Source: a virus. Taken from it: DNA of 24,413 nucleotides. The DNA is taken from positions 1 through 24,413 of IMG/VR virus record IMGVR_UViG_3300043398_000136; one strand, written 5' to 3'. Shown piece after piece: positions 1 through 24,413 of the stretch. Both the position numbers and the translations under genes were made by a program. Under the pieces are notes generated by a model that worked only from the letters and a program-made list of their open reading frames with translations, was not told the origin of the DNA and searched no databases. Position 1 is the first letter of the stretch. Every line of letters begins with the position of its first letter.

Positions 1-389
1 TCAATTCCCAGAAAATCACGCTTCTTTCCTCTTATCGGCTTATCTCTTCCATAGGTACCTAGAATGTTACCTTCAGCCTTTGCATTTTCTTCTGTTCCTC
101 TTTCAAAGCCTACAACAATTGCGCCATTTTTGTGCTTTAAAAGTTGTAAAGCAGCCATCATGTCTCCGCTTAATTGAAGATCAATCTTGCTTGCAGACTT
201 TCCAGCGTTTTTAAAATCAAGTGATGCTTTGTAAGCAGCAGAGTAACCAGGGAACTCACGACCATTTTTATCAAGACCACGATTGGTGCGGTCATAGATA
301 TGTTCCACGATCAAGTCACCAAGCTCTTCACGCTGCGCTGGCTTGAGATCTGAAGGGATTTTGAGCTCAATCTTCTGCCAATCCGCCAT
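1..389 (-). CDS. Virion morphogenesis / connector-like protein, 3' end cut by window
   Basis: The frame opens at an ATG at 387-389 and is open to base 1, so about 129 residues are visible and the C terminus is outside. It overlaps the end of the portal gene by 23 nt. Visible features are a polar N terminus, a segment reading NGREFPGYSAAYKASLDF, then DLQLSGDMM, IVVGFERGT and GKKRDFLG near the cut. The order 'G..FP.YS..Y ... LSGDM...L ... GF..G' resembles small phage head-tail connector or virion-morphogenesis proteins, which act in the neck or in head completion. Its position directly after the portal agrees with this. The family is inferred from pattern only; that it is a real phage structural gene is much surer. 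Confidence 0.75.
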   Translation of the reverse strand, partial: MADWQKIELKIPSDLKPAQREELGDLIVEHIYDRTNRGLDKNGREFPGYSAAYKASLDFKNAGKSASKIDLQLSGDMMAALQLLKHKNGAIVVGFERGTEENAKAEGNILGTYGRDKPIRGKKRDFLGI

Positions 390-1794
390 CTTTTTCCTCT
401 TGCGTATCTTCCATTTGATCTTCTTGATCGTTCTCTTGTTCTATTTGTTCCTGCTTATTGAATCCTCTTTCCTCATCAATTTCCTCAATATATTTTTGAA
501 GTTCATCTTCACCCAAGCCAGGATTTAGCTTCTTGATAGCGTTTTTGCGTGAAATAAACCCAGCTGCGAACTCTTCACGCACTTCTTTAACTACCTCACC
601 ACGTGTTTTTATTGGTAGCTGCTCTGCAAATACAGTTTGAACGAAGGCATTAGGATCAAATAAAGCTTTGTTGTCTATTTGCCCAGTCTTCACCCAGTGA
701 GGATGCATATATTTTAGGATCAAATCCCAGAGCTGCGCTTCTCCTGACTCAAAGAAAGGTATTTGCTTTTGTCTTGCCTCATATGTGTCCATCTCATCGA
801 TGACTTTTGAGATACCAGAAGAAAAGTTTTCTTGTGTTAGTGATCCAACCGATGATGCTCTGATGCCTTTAGTGCCAAGCCACATCATTAGCTCACTTTG
901 AATCAAGTTTAGAACTTCAGCATAGTCAACTTGAGGCTTGAGCATTCCAAGTTCAGGCTTTTTGTCTGATGTAGGATCAGATTTTAAACGCCAAAAAGCA
1001 TTAGGCGACATTTTTAAGTTCTCATCATCTAGATCGATACCATACATAATTGAGAACGCTTGAAACATTGCTGCCACGTTTAGATCTGTAAGCATGATAG
1101 GAATGATTTTAGTCAGCTTAATGATGTCTTCATCGGTCTTGGGATAGAGGCGGTATTGTGAAGAGTTGATATACACGAAAGGAATAATGCCAAGCGGGTT
1201 GATGCCTTCTTCATTGTATAGTTCTTGCATCATTTGATATTCAATTTGCCCGTCGCTATTGCAAATCATAAACTCGGTATCTGAATAAACCGTGTAGTAT
1301 TCCTTCCCATACTCACAAGAAATAATGATGACATAAGTTGGGATGGTTGAATCAACTTCATTTTCAGAATAAACCAGGAACTTATCATTAAGGATATTTC
1401 TAAGGTATGGCACGCCTTGATAGATATAAGGCTGGATCAATGTTGACTTGCAAAGGTTAAAGAACTCATTAGCAGAGTTCATCTTTACATTCATTCTAAG
1501 CTTATATTGGTACCAGGCTTGAAGTTCCTTGTCTTTTGGAGAACCGTCAATCACGGCTCTAAGCACTGGCCTGTTATATATACCAGTTAGCTTGTCGATG
1601 ATCTTTGGCAGAATGTTGATAGGCACCGTGCGGATCTTAGCTTGCTCATACATCTGCAAGCTAAATTGCTTCTTCATGTCGCAATCGATGTAAGGTAAAA
1701 GATTATTTTCAAATATATCAATCAGCATGTAGTTATGCGCAAGATAAGAGCGCTTGCTTTGAACTAAATCAATGACCTGTTTAGGATCTAACAT
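367..1794 (-). CDS. Portal protein
   Basis: 475 residues. Portal proteins form the dodecameric ring at the capsid vertex through which the terminase pumps DNA. Support comes from length, position right after TerL (2 nt between the TerL stop and this ATG), an N-terminal segment IIDKLTGIYNRPV, a mid-protein block around YGIDLDDENLKMSPNAFW, and the helical SVGSLTQENFSSGISKVIDE stretch typical of the portal stem and wing in SPP1 gp6-like or related families. The last 40 or so residues are strongly acidic (EQIEQENDQEDQMEDTQEE), as is common in portal C termini. Assignment to an exact portal family is not possible by eye. Confidence 0.82.
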   Translation of the reverse strand: MLDPKQVIDLVQSKRSYLAHNYMLIDIFENNLLPYIDCDMKKQFSLQMYEQAKIRTVPINILPKIIDKLTGIYNRPVLRAVIDGSPKDKELQAWYQYKLRMNVKMNSANEFFNLCKSTLIQPYIYQGVPYLRNILNDKFLVYSENEVDSTIPTYVIIISCEYGKEYYTVYSDTEFMICNSDGQIEYQMMQELYNEEGINPLGIIPFVYINSSQYRLYPKTDEDIIKLTKIIPIMLTDLNVAAMFQAFSIMYGIDLDDENLKMSPNAFWRLKSDPTSDKKPELGMLKPQVDYAEVLNLIQSELMMWLGTKGIRASSVGSLTQENFSSGISKVIDEMDTYEARQKQIPFFESGEAQLWDLILKYMHPHWVKTGQIDNKALFDPNAFVQTVFAEQLPIKTRGEVVKEVREEFAAGFISRKNAIKKLNPGLGEDELQKYIEEIDEERGFNKQEQIEQENDQEDQMEDTQEEKDGGLAED

Positions 1795-1796
1795 CT

Positions 1797-3161
1797 TTAA
1801 AACTCCACCGAGCCTTGCGGTTTTTTGCTTGTCTGTAAGTCAATATAAAAGACGGCGTATCCAATAGCCGTAGTTATATGCTGATAGTGTTTGCTATCGT
1901 CTTCAATGTAGCTCCCACCCTTTTTAAGCTTCGTTAACCTCATACCCTCATCAGCAGTCTTGCATCCCTTGTGGATAAAAAACCGCACTTGACCGAGTGC
2001 ATTCTTGCAATAGCTGTTCACCTTGTTATGCCTTGACCGCACTGGAGGGTTGGCAGGAGGTACGTTGTAAGTGAATTTGATTCTATTATTTTGAAGTATT
2101 TGGCGGATTATATCATAATCGGACCTTGTTGATCTTGTGTCACTGTTTTTACCAGCTGCGTCACCATAGATGGCATATGTAAAAGCTTCTGAAATAAGCC
2201 CACGGGATAGAAAATCTTCCATCACCTCTGAAGTTCTTGCACCAAAGATCACGCTTTCCGCGAAAAAGTGAAACGTCTTATCTATATGCTGGAACATAAT
2301 AGCCGACATTGGCTTGCCATCGCCGATATTGAAGTCAAATGTTATGCCAATTGGATAAGCAGGGTTGGGAGTGTAGTCATGATCCTTGAGGTAGTTTGTA
2401 GCTGAATCATATTCATAATAGATCACTTCACCTTTTAATTCATTCCATCTGCCCTCAAGGTACCTTTCAGCCTCTTTTTGCGTCATTGTTTCTTTAAGCT
2501 GGGTTATATACGAAGCATCAAGGAAAGGGTTTTGCTCGGTGTTGGAATAAAAGACGTATTTAAAAGCATGCTGGGAATGAGTGTTAGGCTCGATGAAATA
2601 CTTATAAACCCAGTGACCAGGTGCGTCTGGGTTTGTTGCTGCAATAAGAAGATTGTCTTTGACGTGCGGTAAACGACGCAACCTTGCAGATAGTTGCTTG
2701 AAAGCTTCAAAATCTTCCTCATCATTTTCCACGATCTCTTCTATCACCAGCATTGAGATCTTGAGAGAACGAAACTTTTTATAAAGCCTATCAGCCCATG
2801 AAACTGCGAATATTTCAGAGCCGTTTCTAAAACGTATAACAAAATCAGTGCGGTTTATTTTATAGTCTTTACCTTCTTCAAAATCTTCTTGCATGTGATC
2901 CAGTATTTCACGCCATATAGTGCGTTTTAAGTCTGGCAATGCTTTCCTACCAACACACACACGAGCCTTAGGGTTTTCGATACAGTGACGAATTGCAAGA
3001 TGGGTCATCAGCGTGGTCTTTGCAGAGCCGTATGATCCAGAGAGAAGGATTTGAAGATTGTTCTTTGTATAATCGAAATCACGGACAAGATCACATACCG
3101 CACGTTGGTATGGAATAACGTCAGGGGAAAATTTTGTGAAGTATGGTTCAGATTTAATCAT
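1797..3161 (-). CDS. terL: Terminase large subunit (TerL)
   Basis: ATPase-nuclease motor that packages and cuts phage DNA. Counting from the ATG at 3161 (454 residues): Walker A GSYGSAKTT at about 42-50, Walker B MLVIEE at about 137-142, and the coupling motif AATNPDAPGHW at about 174-184. The C-terminal RNase H-like nuclease has candidate metal ligands in FDFN (D276), YGD (D334) and the acidic pair before SKHYQHITTA (about D421/D422). The frame is open to a TTG at 3179, which would make a TTGA overlap with the stop of the upstream small gene. I prefer the ATG six codons later, but coupling through TTG is possible. It follows TerS and two small genes and precedes the portal, the usual packaging order. 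Confidence 0.93.
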   Translation of the reverse strand: MIKSEPYFTKFSPDVIPYQRAVCDLVRDFDYTKNNLQILLSGSYGSAKTTLMTHLAIRHCIENPKARVCVGRKALPDLKRTIWREILDHMQEDFEEGKDYKINRTDFVIRFRNGSEIFAVSWADRLYKKFRSLKISMLVIEEIVENDEEDFEAFKQLSARLRRLPHVKDNLLIAATNPDAPGHWVYKYFIEPNTHSQHAFKYVFYSNTEQNPFLDASYITQLKETMTQKEAERYLEGRWNELKGEVIYYEYDSATNYLKDHDYTPNPAYPIGITFDFNIGDGKPMSAIMFQHIDKTFHFFAESVIFGARTSEVMEDFLSRGLISEAFTYAIYGDAAGKNSDTRSTRSDYDIIRQILQNNRIKFTYNVPPANPPVRSRHNKVNSYCKNALGQVRFFIHKGCKTADEGMRLTKLKKGGSYIEDDSKHYQHITTAIGYAVFYIDLQTSKKPQGSVEF

Positions 3162-3175
3162 GAAACCATTATAGC

Positions 3176-3367
3176 TCAATAACCATTGATGATAGTCATA
3201 TCCTTCGCCTCAATAGCTCTGCAATATTTATCAACATCTTCTTTTAGAACTTTGATCACATTGCTATATGACTTTACGGTATCTTGCTTTTTGATCTCCA
3301 GGATCCCAATCTCGATCACTAAATCCGCGATCTTCAGCTTTGCTAACTTTAGTTCCTCGTCTGTCAT
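3176..3367 (-). CDS. Small helical (coiled-coil) protein
   Basis: 63 residues from the ATG at 3367, preceded by GGGAA about 6 nt upstream. The open frame extends further upstream (to 3451), but that part lies inside the preceding Cys-rich gene and reads as a shadow. The protein is nearly all helix-forming: MTDEELKLAKLKIADLVIEI, then KKQDTVKSYSNVIKVLKEDV, consistent with a short coiled coil. It overlaps the previous gene by 104 nt and ends at the TerL start. Function unknown; its place between TerS and TerL suggests an accessory packaging role, which is inference only. Confidence 0.6.
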   Translation of the reverse strand: MTDEELKLAKLKIADLVIEIGILEIKKQDTVKSYSNVIKVLKEDVDKYCRAIEAKDMTIINGY

Positions 3368-3521: not shown

Positions 3522-3525
3522 GATG

Positions 3526-3879: not shown

Positions 3880-3882
3880 GTT

Positions 3883-4380
3883 CTAAATCCATCCCATATA
3901 TTTGCGCCTGCCAAATTCAGCTATAAGAGCGGCATCAATTAAACCCTCGTGCGGTTTCTTTGATCGCTCGGATATTAGAAACTCTTCTCCAGGGAAGATG
4001 TCTTTTGCTAGCTTCAATGATTTTTCTTTGCTAGATCCATCATAGCCAGTATGAAGCTTGCTTGTCCAGGTTTGAGGCGGTACCAGAGTATAAACCGCAC
4101 CTAGCGTGGATAGGATACCAACCAGAGATCCGAAATGAGATCCATAGTTGAACATCGAAACTACGCCTTGGTTTGGCATTGCTTGTGCTTTTTCGAGAAA
4201 GAATCTTAGTTTGTAACGTTCCAGGTGGGTATATGTGAACTTTGTGAAGAACTCGGCAATAGCTCCAGTATCTGCTAGCATTGGGAACTTGTAAAAGATC
4301 TTGCCGCTATCAGCTAGAAATACGATCCCACCTTTAAGACCAGGATCAATGCCACAAAATAGAGTTTCTGTTTGATTCAT
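3883..4380 (-). CDS. RuvC-like Holliday junction resolvase
   Basis: 165 residues, about the length of bacterial RuvC. RNase H-fold features are in order: FCGIDPGLKGGIVF with Asp12, FFLEKAQ with Glu63, and a C-terminal HEGLIDAALIAEFG with His144 and Asp149. These match the D-E-(H/D)-D metal-binding set of RuvC-type and phage resolvases. The middle segment NQGVVSMFNYGSHFGSLVGI is also typical of the family. It would cut branched DNA left by ERF-driven recombination and replication before packaging. Its place directly upstream of terS supports that. Metal-ligand assignments are by pattern, not structure. Confidence 0.85.
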   Translation of the reverse strand: MNQTETLFCGIDPGLKGGIVFLADSGKIFYKFPMLADTGAIAEFFTKFTYTHLERYKLRFFLEKAQAMPNQGVVSMFNYGSHFGSLVGILSTLGAVYTLVPPQTWTSKLHTGYDGSSKEKSLKLAKDIFPGEEFLISERSKKPHEGLIDAALIAEFGRRKYMGWI

Positions 4381-6872: not shown

Positions 6873-7634
6873 TTAGTGTTTCCAGGCGCTGATCATTGTT
6901 GCACGTATTTCTTTACGTAAAGCATTGTCAGCAATCCCGTTATATATGTGATTTAGAACAAATTCAAAAGCTTCAGCTTGTGACCTGCCTAGCTTCTTAA
7001 GATCTATAAAAGCCCCATATGCGGTAATATTTCTTTTTCCTATTGAAACGCCATTCCCTTTAACTAATTTCCTAAGAAATGGTGTCAACATTCCAGCATC
7101 ATAATAAGCCTGGTAACTAACTATCGTTTCACTTTTAGGCTTTTCAACAACCGCACTCAATCCCTCTTTCCTAATACTCACGATCTCTTTACATGGATAA
7201 AATAACCTTGCCCCATCAGTGCATTTTCTATCGCAAGGAAAGTTCTTAACTATCAATTTCATGTTGTATCTATAGACCTCAACATCATTCATAACCTCGC
7301 CAGCTTTTATAACAACGCGAAAACGGTCAATCACCTTGCCATCTTTTTCAATCTGATGATTTCTCGTGGTACCAATCACATGCGAAAAATCTTTGAAGTC
7401 ATCCACCGCACGTTTCAAGTCATAACGCTCATCCTCAAAATCAAGCACAAACAAATCACACCCTAAGAAGTTATCTTGATTGCGATGCCCAAACTTAAAA
7501 ACGATAGGCGACCACACAAACCTGGTTATGCAGTTAGCAATCCTAGCCATGTCACTTGTATCTGCATAATTCCAGCCATGAGAGTAACCATACTTTTTAT
7601 CATTATTAAATTGCTTAATGTGATAACTAATCAT
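6873..7634 (-). CDS. Prim-Pol (archaeo-eukaryotic primase)-like protein
   Basis: 253 residues. The pattern of AEP-fold primases is visible: LFVLDFED (D65, E67, D68) for the first metal-binding strand, GTTRNHQ with His93 followed by DRFRVVI (103-109) for the nucleotide-binding strand, and TDGARLFYP (139-147) for the third element. The C-terminal part, from about residue 170, is helical, as in PriCT-like extensions. It would make primers for phage replication. It is the first gene of the leftward replication transcript and is divergent from the ribbon-helix-helix gene. Active-site assignment is by pattern; the family call is fairly sure, the exact activity less so. Confidence 0.75.
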   Translation of the reverse strand: MISYHIKQFNNDKKYGYSHGWNYADTSDMARIANCITRFVWSPIVFKFGHRNQDNFLGCDLFVLDFEDERYDLKRAVDDFKDFSHVIGTTRNHQIEKDGKVIDRFRVVIKAGEVMNDVEVYRYNMKLIVKNFPCDRKCTDGARLFYPCKEIVSIRKEGLSAVVEKPKSETIVSYQAYYDAGMLTPFLRKLVKGNGVSIGKRNITAYGAFIDLKKLGRSQAEAFEFVLNHIYNGIADNALRKEIRATMISAWKH

Positions 7635-7710: not shown

Positions 7711-7917
7711 ATGGCAAAAATAGGAAGGCCAAAACGTATAGAACCGATTGGCAAGAAGCATTTCATAAGGATTGGCCTTGACGAAGAAGCACACAAAGAC
7801 CTGGCAAAGATCGCGGATAAACTAGGTTTGGCGGTGCATTCGTACGCAAAAGCTCTTATCATGCAACAAATCCTCACAAGTAAAACTCAACCAAATAAAC
7901 AAAAGGCGTTTCTATGA
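7711..7917 (+). CDS. Ribbon-helix-helix-like DNA-binding protein
   Basis: 68 residues from the ATG at 7711. An in-frame ATG at 7699 adds four residues, but it would sit almost at the presumed transcript start and has no RBS. The sequence IGRPKRIEPIGKKHFIRIGL gives a basic arm and a short strand, then two helices (DEEAHKDLAKIADKLG, VHSYAKALIMQQIL), the Arc/MetJ/CopG layout. It could repress its own divergent promoter region or act as a replication-control factor. It overlaps the ERF gene by 4 nt (ATGA), so the two are translationally coupled. Confidence 0.7.
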   Translation: MAKIGRPKRIEPIGKKHFIRIGLDEEAHKDLAKIADKLGLAVHSYAKALIMQQILTSKTQPNKQKAFL

Positions 7918-8510
7918 AGCTTAGAACATCAGATAGCATCAATGAACTGGCCACCGCACTTGCAATAGCGCAGGGTCAAATAGAGCCAGCTGATAAAGAT
8001 GGTAAAAGCCATCAAGCCAAATACGCCACGCTTTTAAGTGTTAGGGAAATCTCACGCAATGCCTTGGCTAAAAATGATCTTTCAATCATTCAAGCGCCGT
8101 TTTTTGAAGAAGGTAGGGTAGGTGTTGTTACCAGGCTCATGCACAAAACTGGCCAGTGGATTGAAACAGAGATTAGCATCAAGGTGATGAAAGATGATGC
8201 CCATTCTATCGGATCAGCGATCACATACGGCAGGCGTTATGGTATGTCGGCTATCCTTGGAATTGTTGCAGATGATGATGATGATGCCAATTTAGCTATG
8301 GGCAATAACCAACAAAAACAAAAACCGCACCAACAAGCACAACAACAACAGCAGGTTTTTAATTCCAACAATCCCAAGCATCGTGAATGGGCATTGCAAA
8401 AACTTGATGAACTAAATATGGGTGAAGAGCAGAAGCAAAAGTTTTTAGCTGAAATTCACGGATCAACTCTTGAACACGTGAAAGAAGAGCTGAACAAATT
8501 GAGGGATTAA
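7914..8510 (+). CDS. erf: ERF-family single-strand DNA annealing protein
   Basis: 198 residues. The ERF signature AHSIGSAITYGRRYGMSAIL followed by GIVADDDDDAN lies at about 96-126. The N-terminal part has HQAKYATL and VVTRLMHKTGQWIET, also typical of the family. ERF proteins (P22 Erf type) anneal single strands for recombination and genome circularisation. A Gln-rich linker (about 133-150) separates the core from a small C-terminal helical domain. It starts in a 4-nt overlap with the upstream gene. The SSB 2.6 kb downstream and the RuvC-like resolvase complete a phage recombination set. Confidence 0.9.
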   Translation: MKLRTSDSINELATALAIAQGQIEPADKDGKSHQAKYATLLSVREISRNALAKNDLSIIQAPFFEEGRVGVVTRLMHKTGQWIETEISIKVMKDDAHSIGSAITYGRRYGMSAILGIVADDDDDANLAMGNNQQKQKPHQQAQQQQQVFNSNNPKHREWALQKLDELNMGEEQKQKFLAEIHGSTLEHVKEELNKLRD

Positions 8511-8512: not shown

Positions 8513-8740
8513 ATGGATCTAATACATAGCCCAGAACATGAAGAACTTGCAAAAGCATTGCAAAACCTGAAACAGGAGTGCGGTATGCTAATCATTTTTA
8601 ATCAGCGAGAAAGAGAAGATGGGATTCAAGAATTAGATTCAAGCATGGTTTGCAAGATACCTGATGGGCAAAAAGATTTAGTAGCAGAGCTTTTGAAAGA
8701 TATAGCCGAAGCTGTAGAAAAAGAGAATGCAAGTGAGTGA
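8513..8740 (+). CDS. Hypothetical 75-residue protein
   Basis: Starts 2 nt after the ERF stop. It is an acidic protein with helix at both ends (EHEELAKALQNLKQECGMLI, KDLVAELLKDIAEAVEKE) and a central strand-like segment. No recognised motif. A GTGCGGT heptamer lies in it at 8578. Its tight spacing with ERF and overlap with the next gene make expression likely. It may be an accessory recombination protein; that is inference. Confidence 0.6.
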   Translation: MDLIHSPEHEELAKALQNLKQECGMLIIFNQREREDGIQELDSSMVCKIPDGQKDLVAELLKDIAEAVEKENASE

Positions 8741-9222: not shown

Positions 9223-9362
9223 CAAAAAAAGAAACCGCACAAATTTTAGAAGAGCTTGATAAATTAAAAGCATCCCTGGAAAGTTTGAGTTTGTATTTGC
9301 AGAAGAAAACTATTTTGCAGAAGAAAAAGAATAAGAATAAGAAAAAGAATACTCAATCATAG
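9219..9362 (+). CDS. Small Lys/Asn-rich coiled-coil protein
   Basis: 47 residues. It starts in an ATGA overlap with the stop of the preceding membrane-protein gene. The N-terminal part is a leucine-spaced helix (LEELDKLKASLESLSLYLQ). The last 14 or so residues are almost all Lys and Asn (KKKNKNKKKN). The overlap and clean reading frame favour a real gene; function unknown. It ends the first part of the rightward cluster. Confidence 0.55.
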   Translation: MTKKETAQILEELDKLKASLESLSLYLQKKTILQKKKNKNKKKNTQS

Positions 9363-9480: not shown

Positions 9481-9543
9481 AACCGCACTTTATTAAATAT
9501 GGTTTTTAATAAAGAAAAATCCTTTTTTTTAGGGAAGATTGCC

Positions 9544-11059: not shown

Positions 11060-11084
11060 ATTTTAAACCGCACCTCAAACCGCT

Positions 11085-12868: not shown

Positions 12869-12886
12869 TTCACTTCTCCTTGAAAG

Positions 12887-12916
12887 GATATAAAAATGAT
12901 TTATCAGCTGATTCAA
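12887..12916 (-). promoter_or_regulatory. Possible promoter for the protease gene
   Basis: On the minus strand TTGAAT (12911-12916) and TATATC (12887-12892) are 18 nt apart. This would give a leader of only about 11 nt carrying the GGAG. If real, the protease is expressed separately from the lysis-like genes upstream, as cargo genes often are. The match is mediocre. Confidence 0.3.
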
Positions 12917-13742: not shown

Positions 13743-14003
13743 TTAAGATTTAAAAGCGCCGATCACATTCTTTGCTAGTTCATAGATACGTGCGGTCAAG
13801 ATACTCACTTCTTTTGATTCAAGATCTTTAATTTCTGGCAAGCAGAAAGGAAGTTCTTTGCAAAAATCAACTACATCTTGGAGAGCTTTTAAGAAAGCAA
13901 TAATGTCGCCAATTCCAATGCCATCTTTTACGATGTTCACTAAACCGCACAACATTCTTTCAAGATCGTCTAAAGTTTCTAGCACATTTTTAATGTCAGA
14001 CAT
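13743..14003 (-). CDS. Hypothetical 86-residue protein of the lysis-like operon
   Basis: First gene of the leftward lysis-like unit, with GAGG at 6 nt spacing and a candidate promoter just upstream. It is helical (VLETLDDLERMLCGLVNIVK), with a semi-hydrophobic middle (GIGIGDIIAFLKALQDVVDF) and FCKELPFCLPEI. It could be amphipathic and membrane-associated, but has no clear transmembrane segment. Function unknown; linked to the holin-like and transglycosylase genes by order. Confidence 0.65.
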   Translation of the reverse strand: MSDIKNVLETLDDLERMLCGLVNIVKDGIGIGDIIAFLKALQDVVDFCKELPFCLPEIKDLESKEVSILTARIYELAKNVIGAFKS

Positions 14004-14837: not shown

Positions 14838-16250
14838 TTAATCAGAAATAACTGTGCCATTCACTGTTAAAGTTCCGTTTACCGTTAAAGGTGCTTTTGT
14901 CCACCAAAGTGCGGTTGATGCAACCGTGATAGTTACACCAGTGTCGATGGTATTATAGCCACTTGTCATGGTATAGCCGCTTGATATTGTAAAGTTGGAA
15001 GTCAAAAGCTGCTTCGATAAAAAGCCCCAGTCTGTTGTAACAAGTTGGCTACCAAAAATTGGTGATATTTTAGTACCCGCTATTGCAGCAGCAGCATCAA
15101 CATCATTGTTAACAATTGCAGACGATGAAACATTCCCGCTAGCGTCTAAATGTGCAATGCCAGTTGTATAAGCATTGAATTGTAAAACACCTGTTTTTTT
15201 AACAGTCAACCTAGCTTCTGATGTTGCACTGTTATAAAACTGGATCGTATCACTAGCATAATTTTTAGATATACCTGCTTGGGATGATGTTGTATTCATC
15301 CTCAAATTCTGATCACCCGCTAAATTTAAATGAATATCTTTTGTAGTAGTGGTCTGGCCTGTACCGTTCGGCGTTAAAACAAGATCGCCGTTTGTGTTGG
15401 TTGTGCTTATTGTGTTTCCATCCAGCAATAAGTTATCAACTGCAAGGCTAGTGATACCTGTAAAAGACTTGTTAGAAATAGCTTGAGAACTTGAAAGATC
15501 CACTATTTCAACTTCAGAACCTAATAAACCAAGCTTCCATTTGGATGTAGTTGTGGCATCAAATATCAAGCTTCCGTGTGTAGATGTGCGGTACACTCGC
15601 AAACCTGCACCAACTGAAGAAGCATCATTGCCACCATTGTTTATTGTGATGTTGGCATCTTCCACATCTAGGTTGGTTGTATTTAGCGTTGTTGTGGTTC
15701 CACTAACTGTAAGATCACCAGGGATAACTACAGTTGAGGTTGCGCCACCGATTGTAATATTGAAAGCGCCAGCTGATGTAGCAAAGCTTAAATTGCCCGC
15801 TGATTGAACGTCTAAGGTTCCACCTGATATAAGACATGTAGAAAGAATTGCAGCGTCCAGCGTTTTATTTTGAAGAGTTTGTGAGGTATTGACACCGACT
15901 ACCGTCAAAGTTGCGTCTGGAAAAGTATATGTCCTAGAAGATGTGGAGTTGAAATCAAGCGTATTAGAAACACCAGTTGAACTACCTGCTACATCCACTA
16001 AAAAAAGTTTTGTCGCGTCTGTTATATCGCTTTCATTGACTGCATTTCTCCACGCCGAGCTTAGAAAATACCGCACCTTTCCAGTGGTACTATTAAGATA
16101 CGAAGAACCATTTATAGCAGCACCAAAAGCAGAAACATACGCGGCATCATTTGCAAAAACTGGTAGAAATGCTGCTGAAATACTCAAGTCAGTAGGTGCA
16201 CCAACGTTAGTTCCCTCTGAAAACTGTAACTTTTTAATTGTTCCAGCCAT
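14838..16250 (-). CDS. Long tail fibre / side-tail-fibre-like protein
   Basis: 470 residues, very rich in Ser, Thr, Asn and Gly, predicted all-beta. Recognisable fibre phrases are FPDATLTVVG, SQTLQNKTLDA, LTVSGTTTTLNTTNLDVED and SNKSFTGITSL, which recur in many phage fibre repeats. The N terminus MAGTIKKLQFSEGTNVGAPT is likely the attachment end. The last 40 residues repeat LTVNGTLTVNGTVISD-like strands. It would mediate host contact. It has AAGG upstream and follows the tail tip gene by 10 nt. Confidence 0.8.
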   Translation of the reverse strand: MAGTIKKLQFSEGTNVGAPTDLSISAAFLPVFANDAAYVSAFGAAINGSSYLNSTTGKVRYFLSSAWRNAVNESDITDATKLFLVDVAGSSTGVSNTLDFNSTSSRTYTFPDATLTVVGVNTSQTLQNKTLDAAILSTCLISGGTLDVQSAGNLSFATSAGAFNITIGGATSTVVIPGDLTVSGTTTTLNTTNLDVEDANITINNGGNDASSVGAGLRVYRTSTHGSLIFDATTTSKWKLGLLGSEVEIVDLSSSQAISNKSFTGITSLAVDNLLLDGNTISTTNTNGDLVLTPNGTGQTTTTKDIHLNLAGDQNLRMNTTSSQAGISKNYASDTIQFYNSATSEARLTVKKTGVLQFNAYTTGIAHLDASGNVSSSAIVNNDVDAAAAIAGTKISPIFGSQLVTTDWGFLSKQLLTSNFTISSGYTMTSGYNTIDTGVTITVASTALWWTKAPLTVNGTLTVNGTVISD

Positions 16251-16260
16251 ACAAAACCTT

Positions 16261-18342
16261 TCAAAGCCTGAATAAATCAGACGCTTCTAATGAAATTCTA
16301 TTAGGTGATTTAGTTATGCTTGTTATTTTAACAGCTGATTGGTCTGAAGTTCCTAGTACACGCTTATCATCTAGCAAAACATCATCGCCAATCTCGCTAT
16401 CAATGTCTTCCGTAGCTGTCTCAAATCTATAAATAGCCCGTCTTTCAGATCTTAAATCAATATGCCTTTGGATGTTTGATGTGAACTCTTCCAAAACGTG
16501 CCTAAATCTTGTGACATTTGACACGCCGTGAAGGTATTTTGAAAGGTTGCTAGAAGCAGTTGCAGATGGAGAGGTAGCAGCATCTATTGCTATCTGACTA
16601 TCATGGTGAGGATTGTAGGCAATGATTGAAGTTTCAATGTCGCCATACTCTATATCAACAGAAATGGATCGGTTTAAAATTAAAGCATCGTCACGAGTGT
16701 TTGAACTGCTAGGAGAAGAGAAAATATGGTACTCAACTTCAAAGCTGGAATTTATTTTAAGGTAGCTTATCGCACTGGAAAGCACATCCTGCGTATACTC
16801 AAGAAAGCTTTTGTAGTCGCTCTCATCAAAATTCGGGATGTGGAAGCGCGCTTTAACTGGTAAGTCTGTATAGGCAGAAGAAAAGCTAGCAGAGTTAACA
16901 ACAAAGCCATTTATTTCCAACATGTCTTTAATAATATCCGCATGACTTTGAATAACAGTGTTTGAAGTTCTAAAAAAAACTTCGTCTTGTTGAGGATCCA
17001 ATGGGTCAACCATGGAAAGATTAGCTTCAAAGTTGTTTACAAACTCAATCTCGATGTATTTATTGCCACCAGTGGTAGTAGTTTCTGTCGTCGTGTAGTC
17101 GCGTTCATATTTTGGATAGTACCTAGTACCATCTCCTAGAGTTATAAACGTTGCGAAGCTTTTAAGGTTTGAAACAGTTGAGGCAAGAGTAAAAGGGCCT
17201 GTTGGATCAGAGATGATCACGTTATAACTAACACTAGAATAGGTGAAGGTTCCAACATAGTTGACGATGCCATAATACGTAACGGCTGATTCAACCCATT
17301 TAATCGTATCGCCTATAAAAACATTCGACGTTGAGGCAAAACGAATAAATCTATACCCAGTACCTGAATCGAGCGTGGCTTGAACCGCACCAAAAGACTG
17401 CGTTTGTACACTTCCTTTTATCCGACAGCACCCCCATGTGCGGTTTGTTGAGGTACTAGGTGCAGAATCAAAATCAACACAATAGGCATTTGTTCCAATA
17501 TCCAAACGATACACGTCTGGAACACCTGAAAGTGCCACGCTTAAAGATACGGTTTTAAATCTTGAGGATGATCCAACAATATAAGGGCATGGCAAATCAT
17601 TTGCGCTTGGGTCTAAGTCAGGAAATGAAAGAGCATTGCGGCTAAAATAGGCTTCATTGTTTGTATCACCCATCAAAGCTGGCTGATCTAATTTATTAAA
17701 GCTATCCACGCAATTTAAATTGACCGTGTTCGACGTGATATTTAATCCGCGTATGGTACCAGTAAAAATCTTTTGGATGTTAGCGGCTGAATTAATGCAT
17801 AGCCAGATATCAACTTGCTTATTGAAGAAGCTATCTTGTGTAGTTAGGTATTCTTGGAAATTTCCATCTTCATTTATGAGATTAATAGACGCATTTGAAA
17901 TAGTGAAATAACCAGAAAGAATGTTAGTTATGCTTTGAGTGATAGAAGGCGTTGCAAGTATACGTGGCTCCCAAAGCCTAGTTGAGGTCAAGCTATCTTC
18001 TGGATCTTCTGGCAACGATCTAAATTTAGTGTTGGTATAAAAGAGATAGTAAAAGCATATGACTTGGTTATTGCCATTTGTTGTTGTACTCGGTGCACTT
18101 GCAGTCTTTACATAAAGCACTTGTGCGGTGGCGTCATAGTACCATTCATCATTATTTGTAGGAATTGTAGAAACTTTAGTTAAAACCGCACCGTTTCTTT
18201 CAACACGATTGACGATATATGGCATCGATGCGCTATAAACCGTTCCACTATACACGGCAAAAGTTAAAGCCCTTGCTGGATTCATTCTAACAAGTATGAA
18301 TCTTTCACTAGCAAATTTTACTTTTTCAGTTGCTATGCTCAT
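16261..18342 (-). CDS. Tail tip / central hub-like protein
   Basis: 693 residues, beta-rich, no signal peptide. The order of the operon (tape measure, distal tail, small protein, this, fibres) places it where the tail-tip hub (Tal/gpJ-like or an alternative) belongs. Visible segments include SGYFTISNASINLINEDGNF, IFTGTIRGLNI and NTVNLNCVDSFNKLD in the first third, and SEIGDDVLLDDKRVLG with SPNRISLEASDLFRL at the C terminus, where a chain of beta elements resembles hub C-terminal parts. It starts in a 4-nt overlap (ATGA) with the previous gene. No enzyme motif is seen. Confidence 0.65.
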   Translation of the reverse strand: MSIATEKVKFASERFILVRMNPARALTFAVYSGTVYSASMPYIVNRVERNGAVLTKVSTIPTNNDEWYYDATAQVLYVKTASAPSTTTNGNNQVICFYYLFYTNTKFRSLPEDPEDSLTSTRLWEPRILATPSITQSITNILSGYFTISNASINLINEDGNFQEYLTTQDSFFNKQVDIWLCINSAANIQKIFTGTIRGLNITSNTVNLNCVDSFNKLDQPALMGDTNNEAYFSRNALSFPDLDPSANDLPCPYIVGSSSRFKTVSLSVALSGVPDVYRLDIGTNAYCVDFDSAPSTSTNRTWGCCRIKGSVQTQSFGAVQATLDSGTGYRFIRFASTSNVFIGDTIKWVESAVTYYGIVNYVGTFTYSSVSYNVIISDPTGPFTLASTVSNLKSFATFITLGDGTRYYPKYERDYTTTETTTTGGNKYIEIEFVNNFEANLSMVDPLDPQQDEVFFRTSNTVIQSHADIIKDMLEINGFVVNSASFSSAYTDLPVKARFHIPNFDESDYKSFLEYTQDVLSSAISYLKINSSFEVEYHIFSSPSSSNTRDDALILNRSISVDIEYGDIETSIIAYNPHHDSQIAIDAATSPSATASSNLSKYLHGVSNVTRFRHVLEEFTSNIQRHIDLRSERRAIYRFETATEDIDSEIGDDVLLDDKRVLGTSDQSAVKITSITKSPNRISLEASDLFRL

Positions 18343-18809: not shown

Positions 18810-18810
18810 A

Positions 18811-19911
18811 TTAAAAAGCCTCTCTCATTTCAAAATCGATATTATAGTAAGTTCTAAAAATATGATCGAAACGCGGCGGCCTTGTCATGATGACAAACCT
18901 AGTAAGCTCTTCTAGTGCTGCTGTTACTTCTGTTCCTGGATCTATTGAAACAAGAAATGGGTTTCTTACACCTAAATCATAGAATAGCTGCTGAATCTCT
19001 CTTTGCTCTGATCCTGATAAAAGCTGAATGCCACAATTTGCGATGGTTAGATACCTAGGTTTAACTTCTACAAACAAAGCACCGTTTTCACTTTGAAGAG
19101 ATACAGAAGGGTCACTTAATTCTTGGTTAAAACCAGATGCAATGTTACTAGTCGTGATAGTTGTATGATCGCCTATATATCCATAAGCAACTTCCATACC
19201 TTCGGGGCCATTATAATTTCCACGGTCTATAATTTCTAAACGCCAAAAACGGTAACTATCAGTGACTTCATCATCAAAAAAATAAAAACATCCAAGGTCA
19301 GTTACTGGGATAGTGATATCAACTGGTGGAGAAACCCAGTAGTCAATATTGTTTGCTCTAAGTTTTACGGTAGCTGTTTCACTTAAAGTAAACACCTCAT
19401 CAATACCAGAAAGCAAAGCTGCAAATGTTGCTAGCTGTGGCACCCCAACATCGCATTGGATCCATTCGCTTGTATGGTTGCGCTGCGCATCGGCAATAAA
19501 ACTAAGGCCTGTAAGATCGCTAGTACCAGTAAAACCGATCACATCCCACACCGCACTTGTTGTCTGGGTTATCCTTAAAGTTGCGCTAGAAGATCTTGCG
19601 ATTGTGAACTTGCCAGTTAAAACATTATAGGTGCATGTCCACCCAGAAGAGGCCGCATTGAGTTGTGTTTGGATATGGCTTGCAAGAGTGTTGTAAAGAT
19701 AGCTTGCAGAAGTAAGAGTGATGGTTTTATTTGATCCATCGTTTATATAAAGCAAATTATTTGTGCTAGTGATCTCAAAGTTGCCTGCTGGCTTCCATAT
19801 CTTAGAGCGTGAAGTGTTATGCGCATTGGTAGCTGGAAAACCTGCTAGCTGGCTTGAATAAGTAAAGCTTCTTTCAAGATAATTGTTGTTCATGAAGCGT
19901 ATTTTTTTCAT
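18811..19911 (-). CDS. Distal tail-like protein
   Basis: 366 residues, starting in a 4-nt overlap with the tape measure stop (ATGA). The N terminus has FTYSSQLAGFPATNAHNTSR with SKIWKP, a start frequently seen in phage tail proteins of this position. Residues about 50-135 form an inserted domain (YLYNTLASHIQTQLNAASSG ... YNVLTGKFTI ... IGFTGTSDLTG) that also occurs in the tail tube protein at 23346-24413. The C-terminal part has VEVKPRYLTIANCGIQLLSG and a predicted mixed fold. A distal-tail (Dit-like) role is inferred from position between tape measure and hub. Confidence 0.65.
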   Translation of the reverse strand: MKKIRFMNNNYLERSFTYSSQLAGFPATNAHNTSRSKIWKPAGNFEITSTNNLLYINDGSNKTITLTSASYLYNTLASHIQTQLNAASSGWTCTYNVLTGKFTIARSSSATLRITQTTSAVWDVIGFTGTSDLTGLSFIADAQRNHTSEWIQCDVGVPQLATFAALLSGIDEVFTLSETATVKLRANNIDYWVSPPVDITIPVTDLGCFYFFDDEVTDSYRFWRLEIIDRGNYNGPEGMEVAYGYIGDHTTITTSNIASGFNQELSDPSVSLQSENGALFVEVKPRYLTIANCGIQLLSGSEQREIQQLFYDLGVRNPFLVSIDPGTEVTAALEELTRFVIMTRPPRFDHIFRTYYNIDFEMREAF

Positions 19912-22778
19912 GCAAACAGCCTAGCATTATTTCTGCTTAAATTTAGAATCACGTTTGCTAGTTCCCTACCATCTATAGTTATGGCAGTGCTAACTTGTTG
20001 GGGATTGTTTAAAGCATTATATATCTTATTTAGCAGTGCTGTCTGCATTCCGTTATCAGGTGCGGTAGCTTGTGTATCTTGATCAATTAAACCAAGAAGA
20101 CCGCTTGTTATATTTGGTGGTAGAACCATTTCGCCAGATGTTAGACGTGCTGGGAATGTATCGTTAGGGAATCCAGTCGGGATGATCCCACCTTCTGCAA
20201 ATCCAAAAGCGCTTGATATTGCACCACCTAGATCACCTAATACACCACCACCACCGCCAAAGCTAGGTGCTTCAATTTTAATATTGAAGAGATCTTTGAA
20301 AGAGTTTGCTATGTCGGTCATGCCTTGCCTAATGCCATCAATTGCAGCATTAAAGCCACCTATAACAGCATCTTTTATACTCGTTCCAAGGCTGCCAAGA
20401 TCAAAAGCTTGCTTGAACTCTCTAGATATATCAACCGCACCAACTTTTATAGCTCGTGATATATCACCGCCCAAATCTTTCAATCCGTTTGCAATACCAT
20501 TTGCAAAAGCCAAACCTACAGCTTCTAAAAATTGAGGGTCAGTTGATAGGGATATAAAAGCTTTTGTCACTCCAGACGCTATTTCTGGAAGTGCTGCAAT
20601 GATCGCTGTTATTAAGTCTTCAATAATTTGAGCAGCATTGTCTTTTATAAAGCTAGAAAGACTAGCAACAATTCCAGGGAAGGCTTTTACAAGCTCAATC
20701 AAATTCGCTGCTATATTTTTAAAGAACTCTGGGGAAAATAATGTAGCTAATTGCTCTTTAAACTTGTCGGTGCTTTGAGAAAAGAAGGCAAATAGTTCAC
20801 CAGCAGCAGCACCTAAACCAGGTAGTATGGTATTAGTGATAGCTTCGACACCTGATTTTGCCAAGCCCTGCAAGCCACTTGTTGTGAATGTGGTGATGCC
20901 TTTTGTGAAGTCTTCATATGAAGCTGTTTGAGCTGCAAGAATCCGCTTATTAGATTCTTCAACTATCACTTCATTTAATTTAGCCGCTTCTTCAGCTGAT
21001 ATAAGCTGTTTCTTATAATACTCTTCAACATTTTTTAGGTCTTTTTCTCTTGCCAGCTCAATAGCTGTAAGATTGCCAAGCTCTTTTGACAAAATTCTTT
21101 CTAACAATGCGTCCCGTTTTTCGGCGTCTTTTTCTGCAAGATCATTATTTTTTAAAGAGAAACTTTTTAAAGCCTGGTTTCTAAGTCTTTCAGCTTCATT
21201 TGTTTTGATGACCTTATTATTTTCAAATAAAGCTATCTGCTCATTGTCTTTTTCTAGCTGCTTCTGAACCTTTTCCCGCTCTGTTAAAGTGCGGTTTGTC
21301 AGCTCTTCGGTAAAAGATTTTACTTTGTCCTTAAACTTTTCTTCTATTTCAAGCTGCTTTGCTTTTTCTTTTGCAGCTTCCACAGAAGCTTTTACTGCCG
21401 CTTGCCCTTCTTCTTCTTGCGCTTCTTTTGCTTTCTTGGCTGATTTTGCTATGTCGTTATCAGTACCAATAATCTTTAATGCCGAATCAATATATTTATC
21501 AGAGAAGCTATCAATAGTTTTTGTAAAGGATGCAGAAACACTTCCGATGCTTGTTTGTGCGTTATCAAGAGATGTTTTGATCCCATTGACGCCGTTTTTT
21601 ACCTTATCAAAATCTTTCTCATCAAATAAAAGACCGTCAAACGATGCTGATGTTTCTTCCAGTTTTGCAATTGTGGCATCAAGATCAATACCAAGGCGAT
21701 TGAATACGGTTGCAGCACCTGGGATTTCACGAATGGAAGTTATAAATTGAGTGACTAGATCAATTGTTCCTGTAAAGAAATCTGAAATAAAGTTAGAAAC
21801 GCCTTCCACAGTAGACCTAACAGATTCCAAACTTAAGAACGCATCAACTATAGTGACAATAGCTTGAGATATTCCCACCGCACCTGAAGCCATGACTTCA
21901 ATAAATGTAGAAACAACTTTTATTGCAGTTGAAATAATCTCAACAGTAGCAGCAAAAACACCAGCGCCGATCTTTACAAGAGCAGATACAAAGTTTTCTA
22001 TAGGCTCTTGGGAATCTTCTAAGACCTTACCAAGGCTTTCTATAACAGAAGTAACGCCTTTGATTGCAGCTATCACTACAGGGTTTTGCGTTATAGTCCT
22101 TCCAATCGCTTTCTGCGCATCATCAAATGCGACGCCTAGCTGATTCAAAGCACCCTTGTAGGTGTTCGTCGAATCAAGAGCAGAACCTTTTAGACGATCT
22201 GCAACATAATCAATTGCAGCCCCTGCCTCTAATTGTTCTTTAGTGAATTTTTTAAGCTCTGGGATTGTGTTAGAAATAGCACCAGCTGAACCCTTCAAGG
22301 TCTTAGAAAGCTCACTAAATGAAGTTTCTAAACTATCACCTGTCACAGTTGCAAGGTCTGCTGCTGTTTGAACAAGCTTTTTAGCATCGGTATTAGTAAG
22401 ACCGAGCTGCTTAGCAAGAGCAAGCTGGGATAAAACCACATCATCAGAAAATGAGCTTGTTTTTTCTAGCTCACCTGAAAAGTCTTCAAAATCTTTTTTT
22501 GCTTCTTGTGAAAAATCACCTACAGACTTGAGGCTTGATTCAAGCTTGCGCATTGCCTCATCAGTTTGCACCGCCTTGTCGATAGCATCGCTGAAAAAAT
22601 CAAATACTTGTTTACCAGCAAACACTGCGACGGCAGCAATGGCAGCAGTTTTTATTCCATCGAAAGATTTTGAGATATCATCGGCAGATTTTGTAGCCAC
22701 TTTTTCAAGGGTCTGCAATGAGTTAACCGCTTCGCTTACGGTTGCCAGGATCTCAATTTCAACGCTTTCGGCTGCCAC
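19908..22778 (-). CDS. Tail tape measure protein
   Basis: About 956 residues from a GTG at 22778, chosen because GAGG lies upstream and MAAESVEIEILATVSEAVNS is the usual style of start. A TTG at 22823 would add a basic stretch that mirrors the upstream gene. It holds long coiled coils (KAKEAQEEEGQAAVKASVEA and neighbours), several hydrophobic helices (KTAAIAAVAVFAGKQVFDF; ALVKIGAGVFAATVEIIS), and near the C terminus the typical FAEGGIIPTGFPNDTFPARL with TSGEMVLPP. It sets tail length and may enter the host envelope. At the common rule of about 0.15 nm per residue, the tail would be about 140 nm long. Confidence 0.92.
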   Translation of the reverse strand: MAAESVEIEILATVSEAVNSLQTLEKVATKSADDISKSFDGIKTAAIAAVAVFAGKQVFDFFSDAIDKAVQTDEAMRKLESSLKSVGDFSQEAKKDFEDFSGELEKTSSFSDDVVLSQLALAKQLGLTNTDAKKLVQTAADLATVTGDSLETSFSELSKTLKGSAGAISNTIPELKKFTKEQLEAGAAIDYVADRLKGSALDSTNTYKGALNQLGVAFDDAQKAIGRTITQNPVVIAAIKGVTSVIESLGKVLEDSQEPIENFVSALVKIGAGVFAATVEIISTAIKVVSTFIEVMASGAVGISQAIVTIVDAFLSLESVRSTVEGVSNFISDFFTGTIDLVTQFITSIREIPGAATVFNRLGIDLDATIAKLEETSASFDGLLFDEKDFDKVKNGVNGIKTSLDNAQTSIGSVSASFTKTIDSFSDKYIDSALKIIGTDNDIAKSAKKAKEAQEEEGQAAVKASVEAAKEKAKQLEIEEKFKDKVKSFTEELTNRTLTEREKVQKQLEKDNEQIALFENNKVIKTNEAERLRNQALKSFSLKNNDLAEKDAEKRDALLERILSKELGNLTAIELAREKDLKNVEEYYKKQLISAEEAAKLNEVIVEESNKRILAAQTASYEDFTKGITTFTTSGLQGLAKSGVEAITNTILPGLGAAAGELFAFFSQSTDKFKEQLATLFSPEFFKNIAANLIELVKAFPGIVASLSSFIKDNAAQIIEDLITAIIAALPEIASGVTKAFISLSTDPQFLEAVGLAFANGIANGLKDLGGDISRAIKVGAVDISREFKQAFDLGSLGTSIKDAVIGGFNAAIDGIRQGMTDIANSFKDLFNIKIEAPSFGGGGGVLGDLGGAISSAFGFAEGGIIPTGFPNDTFPARLTSGEMVLPPNITSGLLGLIDQDTQATAPDNGMQTALLNKIYNALNNPQQVSTAITIDGRELANVILNLSRNNARLFA

Positions 22779-22977
22779 GTTTCTTTGCCTCTTCAGCCTG
22801 AACTTTGTCGATCTCTTGATCAATCAACTGGAAGCATTCGGCCTTAAAAAAGGTTAGCTCATTTATATTTGACGTAAACCCGAGTGCGGTCATACGTTTG
22901 CGCGTGATGTATTCCGATACGATAGGGGCAGCTTCATTTATCAAGCTTTGGCCTTTTGCTACAGACCTTGCTTGCAT
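22759..22977 (-). CDS. Tail assembly chaperone T-like part, reached by -1 frameshift
   Basis: The ORF after the G-like gene encodes 72 residues from an ATG at 22977, rich in helix and ending in KAKKRGSRKR-like basic residues. The frame is open upstream of that ATG back to the slippery site at 22998-23004, adding RLKAALR. It is thus more likely the C-terminal domain of a G-T fusion (113 residues from G plus 79, total about 192) than a separate gene. In lambda, GT binds the tape measure, whose gene follows here. It overlaps the tape measure start by 20 nt. Confidence 0.7.
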   Translation of the reverse strand: MQARSVAKGQSLINEAAPIVSEYITRKRMTALGFTSNINELTFFKAECFQLIDQEIDKVQAEEAKKRGSRKR

Positions 22978-22991
22978 TCTAAGAGCCGCCT

Positions 22992-23336
22992 TTAACCGTT
23001 TCCCACCGCACCTTTAAATATCAACATCGCTACATCTCTTATTATAGCCGATGCTTTAGGGTCGCAGCTTAGATCTTCATAAGTTTTATAGTCTGTGATG
23101 ATGCCGCTTGATTCATGTTTGACATCAACAGATTCATAAAACTCTCTTGCAATCTTGATCATGCTGCTAAAAGTTTTAAGCGGGTTTTCATTTTGGCCGT
23201 ATTTCATATTGTTGTTTTCATCGACGCCAATATTCATGCGATCCATGAAATCAATACGCTCTTCATAAAGAGGCATGCGCAATTTAATTTCACCGCTAAA
23301 ACCTTCTTGATCTGGCTTATAGGAAATAGTCTTCAT
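22992..23336 (-). CDS. Tail assembly chaperone G-like
   Basis: 114 residues between the tail tube and tape measure genes, with AGGTGA just upstream. It has a beta-like N terminus (YKPDQEGFSGEIKLRMPLYE) and a helical C-terminal half (LKTFSSMIKIAREFYESVDV; ASAIIRDVAMLIFKG), as in lambda gpG-like chaperones. Its stop (TAA) follows the GGGAAAC slippery heptamer by one codon. The short form made by normal termination and a long form from frameshifting are expected in a fixed ratio. Confidence 0.75.
   Translation of the reverse strand: MKTISYKPDQEGFSGEIKLRMPLYEERIDFMDRMNIGVDENNNMKYGQNENPLKTFSSMIKIAREFYESVDVKHESSGIITDYKTYEDLSCDPKASAIIRDVAMLIFKGAVGNG
22998..23004 (-). other. Programmed -1 ribosomal frameshift site GGGAAAC
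   Basis: On the minus strand the heptamer reads G GGA AAC in the zero frame, an exact X XXY YYZ slippery sequence (lambda uses GGGAAAG; simian type D retroviruses use GGGAAAC). The next zero-frame codons are GGT and the stop TAA. After a -1 slip the frame continues CGG TTA AAG GCG into the T-like ORF without a stop. No strong downstream stem is obvious. The heptamer GTGCGGT abuts it (23004-23010). Confidence 0.8.
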
Positions 23337-23345
23337 TAGTCACCT

Positions 23346-24413
23346 TTATACAAAGTTTAAGTAAACTTCACCTTGACCAGTTGAGTTTACAAAAGCTTGT
23401 AGGTCTAGTGTTAGCTGATAAAGACCATCAGCGTCTTCAATTGCATAACTTGTGATCACGCATGTAGGGATGTAAAGAGCACCGCACTTGCCAGCAACCC
23501 AGTTCCCAGCTGACTTTTGACCAAAAGAATATTGAAACTTGATCTCATCGTTTGAACGGAAGTTCTTAAACTTCTCGGCTTGGTATTGTTCAAGCAGCGC
23601 GGAAATTGTAACGGTAGCAGTTCTTGAGGAAACAACTGAACCTTGAACGCCTGTAGTTGCACAAACACTTAGAATGTCAGTTTTAGGAACATCCAAGCTA
23701 AAAGACACATTACTTGCTTTAAAACAGACATAGTCATTAGTACCACCCACCATAACTTCATGGTCTTTTGCAGTTAAAGGATCAGCAGAATCATAAGAAG
23801 GCGTATAAGGTGCAGCTAATGAGATAGCACTATCTGATTTATAACCAGTAGTAGCGGCTGTACCTGTATCATCTGCTGCTAGTGAAAAACCAATCTTATC
23901 ACCGATTGAGTTAGCAGTGTTGGCGCCTGTATTCCAAAGCAAGCTTAGAAGCGTGCCAGTTCCGACGATCTTAAACTTTCCACCGTCGCCAGCTGTTAGA
24001 TCAGCGGCCTGATCCATATAGGTAACTGTGTAGGTTTGTGTGGATGCTGTTGCGTTAAGAGCATCTTGAATTGCAGTAGCTAGCTCGTATGGGTCTTTAT
24101 AGAAACCAGTGGCAACAGTTGCAACGAAAGTACCGTCATCATCTGTAAAATCTAGTTTTGCATCTGTTGAAAGGATATTGATTGGGTTCCAATAGTAAGC
24201 AAGCCCAGCCAAGCTGTAGTTGGCATTGATAAGCTCACCAGCTGGGAAATCTATTCCAACGTTTGTCACTCTCATACCAGCGCCCAGCTGAATTGCGCCG
24301 CCGTTTCCAGCATAATGCCATAAGGTCAAAGATGGGTGTGATGTATCTGCTGGCTTGTATAAAACCGCACGCCCCAAGTTGATACCTGTTCCAGGTGCGG
24401 TAGGAAGTTGAAA
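23346..24413 (-). CDS. Major tail (tube) protein, 5' end cut by window
   Basis: The frame is open through base 24413: residues QLPTAPGTGIN precede a TTG at 24377, so the true start is outside the window and that TTG is not the start. About 355 residues are visible. An N-terminal strand-rich part is followed by a domain (about 50-165: DPYELATAIQDALNATAS ... DLTAGDGGKFKIVGTGTLLS ... SIGDKIGFSLAADDTG) shared with the distal tail protein. A C-terminal half with IEDADGLYQLTLDLQAF fits a tube protein. Position before the G/T chaperones supports the call. No sheath gene is seen nearby. Confidence 0.75.
   Translation of the reverse strand, partial: FQLPTAPGTGINLGRAVLYKPADTSHPSLTLWHYAGNGGAIQLGAGMRVTNVGIDFPAGELINANYSLAGLAYYWNPINILSTDAKLDFTDDDGTFVATVATGFYKDPYELATAIQDALNATASTQTYTVTYMDQAADLTAGDGGKFKIVGTGTLLSLLWNTGANTANSIGDKIGFSLAADDTGTAATTGYKSDSAISLAAPYTPSYDSADPLTAKDHEVMVGGTNDYVCFKASNVSFSLDVPKTDILSVCATTGVQGSVVSSRTATVTISALLEQYQAEKFKNFRSNDEIKFQYSFGQKSAGNWVAGKCGALYIPTCVITSYAIEDADGLYQLTLDLQAFVNSTGQGEVYLNFV

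Follow-up and report, generated by a model that had tools for sequence, protein, structure and literature searches.

GTGCGGT, a dense and exact DNA word that recurs in uncultured phages, and its possible reading as a Chi-type signal

The heptamer GTGCGGT is a real and very strong DNA word in uncultured phages, and we found no earlier report of it in such phages in the literature searched. We describe it in the window, meaning the whole 24,413-base stretch of IMG/VR virus record IMGVR_UViG_3300043398_000136 (G000), an uncultured phage contig in which the word is dense, exact and scattered over both strands. It recurs in other phages, changes repeatedly on their tree, is extended into dialects in some of them and lacks the flanks of the Haemophilus uptake signal. 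Tentatively, we read GTGCGGT as a Chi-type signal that may attenuate exonuclease degradation in a bacterial host group.

Recounting reproduced, at the same coordinates, what the initial annotation had recorded: 39 exact copies (16 forward, 23 reverse) spanning positions 286-24401, eight of them directly preceded by AA (Table 1). The expectation is 0.93, so that the word is 42-fold enriched and reaches 1.6/kb. Dinucleotide shuffles of the window yielded a mean of 0.75 copies and no more than 4 in any of 100 shuffles, and an order-2 Markov model predicts 1.35. With motif copies masked before training, Markov models of orders 0-5 predict 0.29-1.14. Markov models of order 4-5 had been named as a possible way of explaining the count away; at order 5 the masked model predicts 0.29, and the unmasked value of 31.7 is circular because that model is trained on the motif itself. 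In the gene model used here, 34 copies lie within coding sequences, where synonymous-codon shuffling leaves a mean of 1.6 and a maximum of 6 in 500 trials, and these copies represent every frame and both senses. The five of 39 that fall outside coding sequences are what 88% coding DNA predicts. These controls bear out the earlier view that neither proteins nor composition is the cause. We accordingly give no credence to chance, composition or protein repeats as the source of the density: the circular order-5 value is the one figure in their favour, and the shuffle maxima of 4 and 6 stand against them.

The constraint falls on the seven bases and acts at the DNA level, as the initial annotation had also proposed. 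The 21 one-mismatch words of GTGCGGT total 22 occurrences versus 24.9 expected (0.88-fold), and 31 of the 39 copies (79%) lack the 5' AA. Flanking preferences are weak (A at -2, T or G at +1 and +2), and spacing is near-random, with a coefficient of variation of 0.90. Within the terminase gene, codons bearing the motif match the family consensus in 5 of 15 cases, compared with 57% of the 416 others; in this small sample, the lower match is consistent with selection on DNA.

Relatives were retrieved with the terminase, the trypsin-like protease or a tail protein from the trypsin phages as probe; the motif played no part in their selection. The ~8,128 non-palindromic heptamers were then all ranked relative to an order-2 Markov expectation. 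Two relatives contain long codon repeats, in tandem and in frame (GGCTCT-type at 2754-3060 of L046, GCTGCT-type at 8822-9070 of L040), that put spurious heptamers at the top, so later counts apply a 60-bp spacing rule that leaves out tandem repeats. Enrichment in related phages, whose absence the initial annotation had named as a refutation, is present. GTGCGGT ranks first in G374 (14 copies versus 1.6 expected; 8 forward, 6 reverse), G373 (24 versus 5.3; 13 forward, 11 reverse), G370 (17 versus 3.6), G380 (14 spaced copies versus 1.1), G381 (10 versus 1.4), L292 (10 versus 1.7) and L307 (10 versus 0.4), across GC contents of 38-55%. Pooling gave 209 copies versus 75 expected in 71 tail-protein relatives (rank 2) and 100 versus 29 in 40 terminase relatives (rank 3), and the negative control of 35 distant terminase phages gave 24 versus 26 (rank 4266). 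One-mismatch words again lie at background in G370, G373, G374, G380 and G381 (0.87-0.99-fold). Because G370, G373 and G374 are members of a single phage family, their enrichments are not fully independent, though the tree described below shows repeated change. Several of the records are incomplete, and some loci of the A3 family span only part of a contig. Tyrosine and serine integrases are missing from most GTGCGGT-enriched phages, contigs of 41-51 kb among them; an integrase is present in G370 and G402. Scanning IMG/VR for close GTGCGGT pairs returned chiefly chance matches among the matches listed.

Some phages carry fixed extensions of the word, or dialects: GTGCGGTGG, GGTGCGGT and GTGCGGTTGG. 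Every copy extends to GTGCGGTGG in L342 (13/13) and L335 (9/9), 14 of 15 copies in G379 read GGTGCGGT, and 9 of 10 in L317 read GTGCGGTT. Copies in L307 are followed by T at the first base (8/10) and by G at the second and third (7/10 each). Comparing L342 with L335, we observed some GTGCGGTGG sites at apparently homologous places (for example in the GTGCGGTGGTCACTCT and GTGCGGTGGTTGGATC contexts) and others unique to one phage, a pattern that suggests site turnover around a maintained number. The GTGCGGT label requires 9 changes on the tail-protein tree (72 rows), at least 7 of them forced by well-supported branches. Because the trait changes at least 7-9 times among 72 phages, it seems to track the host and not phage ancestry. 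From this coming and going, the different phage families involved and the dialects, we infer that GTGCGGT is most simply explained as set by the host. The host-linked options of the initial annotation thus survive in part: recurrence and repeated change on the tree support host-set behaviour, and identity with the Haemophilus-type uptake signal falls away.

Related phages also contain other dispersed words. A separate clade in the tail-protein family (L354, L352, L309, L308, L346) is instead dense in ACGGTT on both strands, often as ACGGTTA or AACGGTT, with 60 copies versus 9.7 expected in the 21.7 kb of L354; this may be a further dialect of such a signal, belonging to a different host. Further heptamers and hexamers, 3-9-fold enriched on both strands, are CGGGATC (L020 and L019), TTCACGG (L330 and L333), CACGGAT (L335), GGTTGAG (G379), and GGTGGGG and CCCGGT (G382 and G386). 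Among the distant terminase phages used as control, a single tested contig reached the same threshold for dispersed words.

Our preferred reading, which we hold with less than even confidence, is that GTGCGGT acts as a Chi-type, exonuclease-attenuating signal of a host group; both the involvement of a host and the enzyme that would read the word are inferred. GTGCGGT would then be a short, exact and asymmetric DNA signal read by a host enzyme, with which several unrelated phage lineages on the same host group would independently have filled their genomes. The likeliest reader may be an end-processing helicase-nuclease of the host, of the RecBCD/AddAB class. Such an enzyme would enter phage DNA at a free end, whether the DNA is replicating, concatemeric or newly injected, and an encounter with GTGCGGT would attenuate degradation and favour recombination. 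We propose that many sites in both orientations would protect the genome from either end. Hosts reading slightly different words could give rise to the dialects GTGCGGT, GTGCGGTGG, GGTGCGGT, GTGCGGTTGG and perhaps ACGGTT.

A Chi word is short, asymmetric and over-represented, and GTGCGGT is 7 nt long, asymmetric and 42-fold enriched. Its near-equal orientations had been taken to argue against Chi-like signals, an argument that fails because Chi in coliphage P1 is itself non-polar. In the first 50 of the 95 kb of P1, we counted 15 forward and 12 reverse Chi sites, 12-fold enriched at 0.54/kb, with one-mismatch words at background (1.09-fold) and no flank bias; GTGCGGT is likewise non-polar and mismatch-free. 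Published Chi words (GCTGGTGG, AGCGG, GCGCGTG, GAAGCGG, GCTGGCGC) are species-specific and 5-8 nt long, some contain GCGG (AGCGG, GAAGCGG), and Chi in P. syringae shows no strand skew and is found roughly once per 3 kb (PMC5959072). Virulent phages over-represent Chi, as do phages that do not block RecBCD, with a median observed/expected ratio (O/E) of ~2.5 in Rec+Inh- lambdoids (PMC3784561). Alongside this Chi excess in virulent phages, we count the lack of integrases in most enriched phages as a likely point for Chi.

Several points weigh against a Chi-type signal. GTGCGGT is absent from the published Chi words, and the 9-nt GTGCGGTGG of L342 and L335 exceeds any Chi listed (PMC5959072). Enrichment of 29-42-fold at 1.6/kb is extreme beside the ~2.5-fold typical of lambdoid Chi (PMC3784561), and T5 holds just 2 Chi copies, a 1.9-fold excess, in the first 50 of its 113 kb. 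None of the 369 Bdellovibrionota genomes searched showed the enrichment. GTGCGGT would also have to match the Haemophilus signal's 7-base core by coincidence. The ERF recombinase of the window is a further point, since a phage with a recombinase depends less on Chi. Taken alone, the orientation, spacing and mismatch tolerance of the sites fail to tell Chi from an uptake signal.

In bacteria with uptake signal sequences (USS) or DNA uptake sequences (DUS), the host genome is enriched on both strands, at about 1/kb. That GTGCGGT is such a signal, belonging to a not yet recognised competent host group with dialects around GCGGT, we judge unlikely. It would have built up through biased uptake and recombination, the way uptake signals do in prophages of Pasteurellaceae. 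GTGCGGT is the 7-base core of the Haemophilus signal Hin-USS, AAGTGCGGT, and GCGGT is common to the Apl dialect (PMC1626085), which makes the shared core a real point for another uptake signal as a possibility. Constant-core dialects are known for uptake signals and the magnitude of enrichment here is USS-like: Pasteurellaceae phages accumulate the signal as prophages, with saturation near 750/Mb (PMC6776037), HP1 carries USS9 at 55-fold and 0.53/kb, and AAGTGCGGT is 36-60-fold enriched in HP1 and Aaphi23. The details fit less well. AA precedes the word in 8 of 39 window copies, compared with 17 of 27 in HP1. The AT-rich 3' flank, evident in HP1 and Aaphi23 together (z=2.6, 2.9; n=34), is absent over 228 environmental sites (z=0.6, -1.0); flanking motifs are not required by the Neisseriaceae uptake sequence (PMC1626085). 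The slight one-mismatch excess of the USS phages HP1, Aaphi23 and F108 (38 versus 26) has no counterpart here. Most of the phages studied lack an integrase, and large, likely lytic Pasteurellaceae phages are USS-poor (PMC6776037). The narrower proposal of ordinary Hin-USS in a phage of Haemophilus or of another Pasteurellacean host is very improbable. The core is the same, and AAGTGCGGT at 328/Mb in the window passes the 100/Mb cut-off of PMC6776037. Yet the share of copies without AA is 79%, versus 37% in HP1, the environmental sites lack AT-rich flanks, the window has no DNA similarity to 50,697 phage records, and its terminase relatives come from environmental metagenomes, apart from one in a Bdellovibrio metagenome-assembled genome (MAG). 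Because GTGCGGT shows no AA requirement and no AT-rich 3' flank and resides mostly in integrase-less phages, we rejected identity with the Haemophilus-type uptake signal, whose core the initial annotation had recognised in the word.

It also seems improbable to us, to about the same degree as an unrecognised uptake signal, that GTGCGGT is the word of some other site-specific phage or host enzyme or binding protein (nickase, methylase, nucleoid protein or repressor) acting genome-wide. Exact recognition of 7-9 nt with mismatches not tolerated is enzyme-like, and T5, phiKMV-like and tf phages bear site-specific nicks at short consensus words (PMC3517423). Those known nicks are one-stranded and number about 4-17, whereas GTGCGGT is dense and non-polar (16/23 in the window, 13/11 in G373, 8/6 in G374), making site-specific nicks a poor fit. 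Were GTGCGGT a restriction site, phages would be expected to avoid it and not to accumulate it. A single phage-encoded reader is disfavoured by the different phage families and the repeated gain and loss, and the window proteins scanned included no candidate enzyme.

The search for a host centred on Bdellovibrionota, prompted by L087, the Bdellovibrio MAG contig that is the sole terminase relative from a genome collection, and by homologues of the trypsin-like protease, which comprise one Bdellovibrionota clade (<=50% identity) and ten other uncultured phages. We rejected this candidate: raised GTGCGGT was found in 0 of 369 Bdellovibrionota genomes, none coming near the phage density. Ten genomes sampled at 9-40 kb each, enough to show strong enrichment only, had a GTGCGGT O/E of ~1 or below. 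No relative of the tail protein was found in Bdellovibrionota genomes, and look-ups among cultured phages and plasmids gave no informative host.

The window is linear and incomplete, with no terminal repeats. The same phage is represented by a second contig, L009, which is 99.98% identical over 5.1 kb, has identical GTGCGGT sites and extends ~270 bases past window position 1; the 50,697 phage records contained no DNA relatives. Besides the genes in Table 1, the window encodes a small terminase subunit, a RuvC-like resolvase, a primase/helicase, an SLT lysozyme, a tape measure protein and tail genes; no tyrosine or serine integrase was found in this contig fragment. The trypsin-like protease has a lipoprotein-like N-terminus and no match in the cultured-phage collection. 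The Hint-domain protein has a signal-peptide-like start and a degenerate Hint/intein-like domain ending in VHNG; its C-terminal tail of ~60 aa is Cys-rich and hydrophobic and may resemble halocin C8-like peptides. Searches with the portal, primase and Hint proteins brought no new relatives, and no phage relative of the Hint protein was found.

Table 1 GTGCGGT copies and selected genes in the 24,413-base window.
Feature	Position	Strand	Remarks
GTGCGGT copy 1	286..292	+	
GTGCGGT copy 2	1982..1988	-	AA-preceded; in terminase
GTGCGGT copy 3	2036..2042	-	in terminase
GTGCGGT copy 4	2664..2670	+	in terminase
GTGCGGT copy 5	2848..2854	+	in terminase
GTGCGGT copy 6	3097..3103	-	in terminase
GTGCGGT copy 7	3949..3955	+	
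GTGCGGT copy 8	4094..4100	-	
GTGCGGT copy 9	7150..7156	-	
GTGCGGT copy 10	7405..7411	-	GTGCGGTGG
GTGCGGT copy 11	7953..7959	-	AA-preceded; GTGCGGTGG
GTGCGGT copy 12	8324..8330	-	
GTGCGGT copy 13	8578..8584	+	
GTGCGGT copy 14	9234..9240	-	intergenic
GTGCGGT copy 15	9482..9488	-	intergenic; AA-preceded
GTGCGGT copy 16	9759..9765	+	AA-preceded; GTGCGGTGG
GTGCGGT copy 17	11067..11073	-	intergenic
GTGCGGT copy 18	11522..11528	+	GTGCGGTGG
GTGCGGT copy 19	12036..12042	-	GTGCGGTGG; in trypsin gene
GTGCGGT copy 20	12552..12558	-	in trypsin gene
GTGCGGT copy 21	13790..13796	+	
GTGCGGT copy 22	13944..13950	-	
GTGCGGT copy 23	14909..14915	+	AA-preceded
GTGCGGT copy 24	15586..15592	+	
GTGCGGT copy 25	16070..16076	-	
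GTGCGGT copy 26	17384..17390	-	
GTGCGGT copy 27	17438..17444	+	
GTGCGGT copy 28	18123..18129	+	GTGCGGTGG
GTGCGGT copy 29	18185..18191	-	
GTGCGGT copy 30	19550..19556	-	AA-preceded
GTGCGGT copy 31	20060..20066	+	
GTGCGGT copy 32	20434..20440	-	
GTGCGGT copy 33	21289..21295	+	AA-preceded
GTGCGGT copy 34	21877..21883	-	GTGCGGTGG
GTGCGGT copy 35	22884..22890	+	
GTGCGGT copy 36	23005..23011	-	GTGCGGTGG
GTGCGGT copy 37	23481..23487	-	AA-preceded
GTGCGGT copy 38	24364..24370	-	
GTGCGGT copy 39	24395..24401	+	
Terminase large subunit (Terminase_3)	1797..3179	-	probe that found relatives L009-L087; holds 5 GTGCGGT copies
ERF-family single-strand annealing recombinase	7914..8510	+	PF04404, E=1.5e-22; the phage's own recombinase
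Hint-domain protein	9499..10266	+	Hint_2, E=2e-4
Single-stranded DNA-binding protein (SSB)	11125..11553	+	TIGR00621
Trypsin-like serine protease	12023..12916	-	probe that found trypsin phages G370, G373, G374

Dense, exact DNA words that track the host extend beyond Pasteurellaceae phages and recur in uncultured families that mostly lack integrases. It is possible, if somewhat doubtful, that GTGCGGT represents a new host-group-specific, genome-wide signal with dialects, convergent in phages that are for the most part virulent: either a new uptake-signal family, the first beyond Pasteurellaceae and Neisseriaceae, or a Chi system under stronger selection than any known. Were the reader a Chi-recognising nuclease, phages would disclose which Chi words uncultured bacteria use and reveal very strong selection for escape from end degradation. 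Were it an uptake receptor, a new competent host group would come to light, its signal perhaps exploited by phages that enter or recombine via the competence machinery. Either way, the motif offers a host tag, readable from sequence alone, for tying orphan uncultured phages to their hosts.

Set beside known systems, GTGCGGT resembles Chi in P1 (GCTGGTGG) in being short, asymmetric, exact, G-rich and non-polar with mismatch words at background, and we count host-determined, species-specific words as a further shared trait; the strength of P1 Chi equals that of GTGCGGT in G370-G381, and the window is 3-4 times stronger. The Neisseriaceae DNA uptake sequence reportedly forms dialects among related hosts, as GTGCGGT forms dialects, but its sequence is unrelated. 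The Pasteurellaceae USS AAGTGCGGT has the core GTGCGGT, lies on both strands, occurs in phages of one host group and has shared-core dialects (PMC6776037, PMC1626085), as here; unlike Hin-USS, the extensions found here differ both 3' and 5' (GTGCGGTGG, GGTGCGGT). The interruptions of T5, phiKMV-like and tf phages (PMC3517423) are, like GTGCGGT, short consensus sequences scattered through the genomes of virulent phages; they are confined to one strand at 4-17 sites, whereas GTGCGGT occupies both strands with up to 39 copies in 24 kb.

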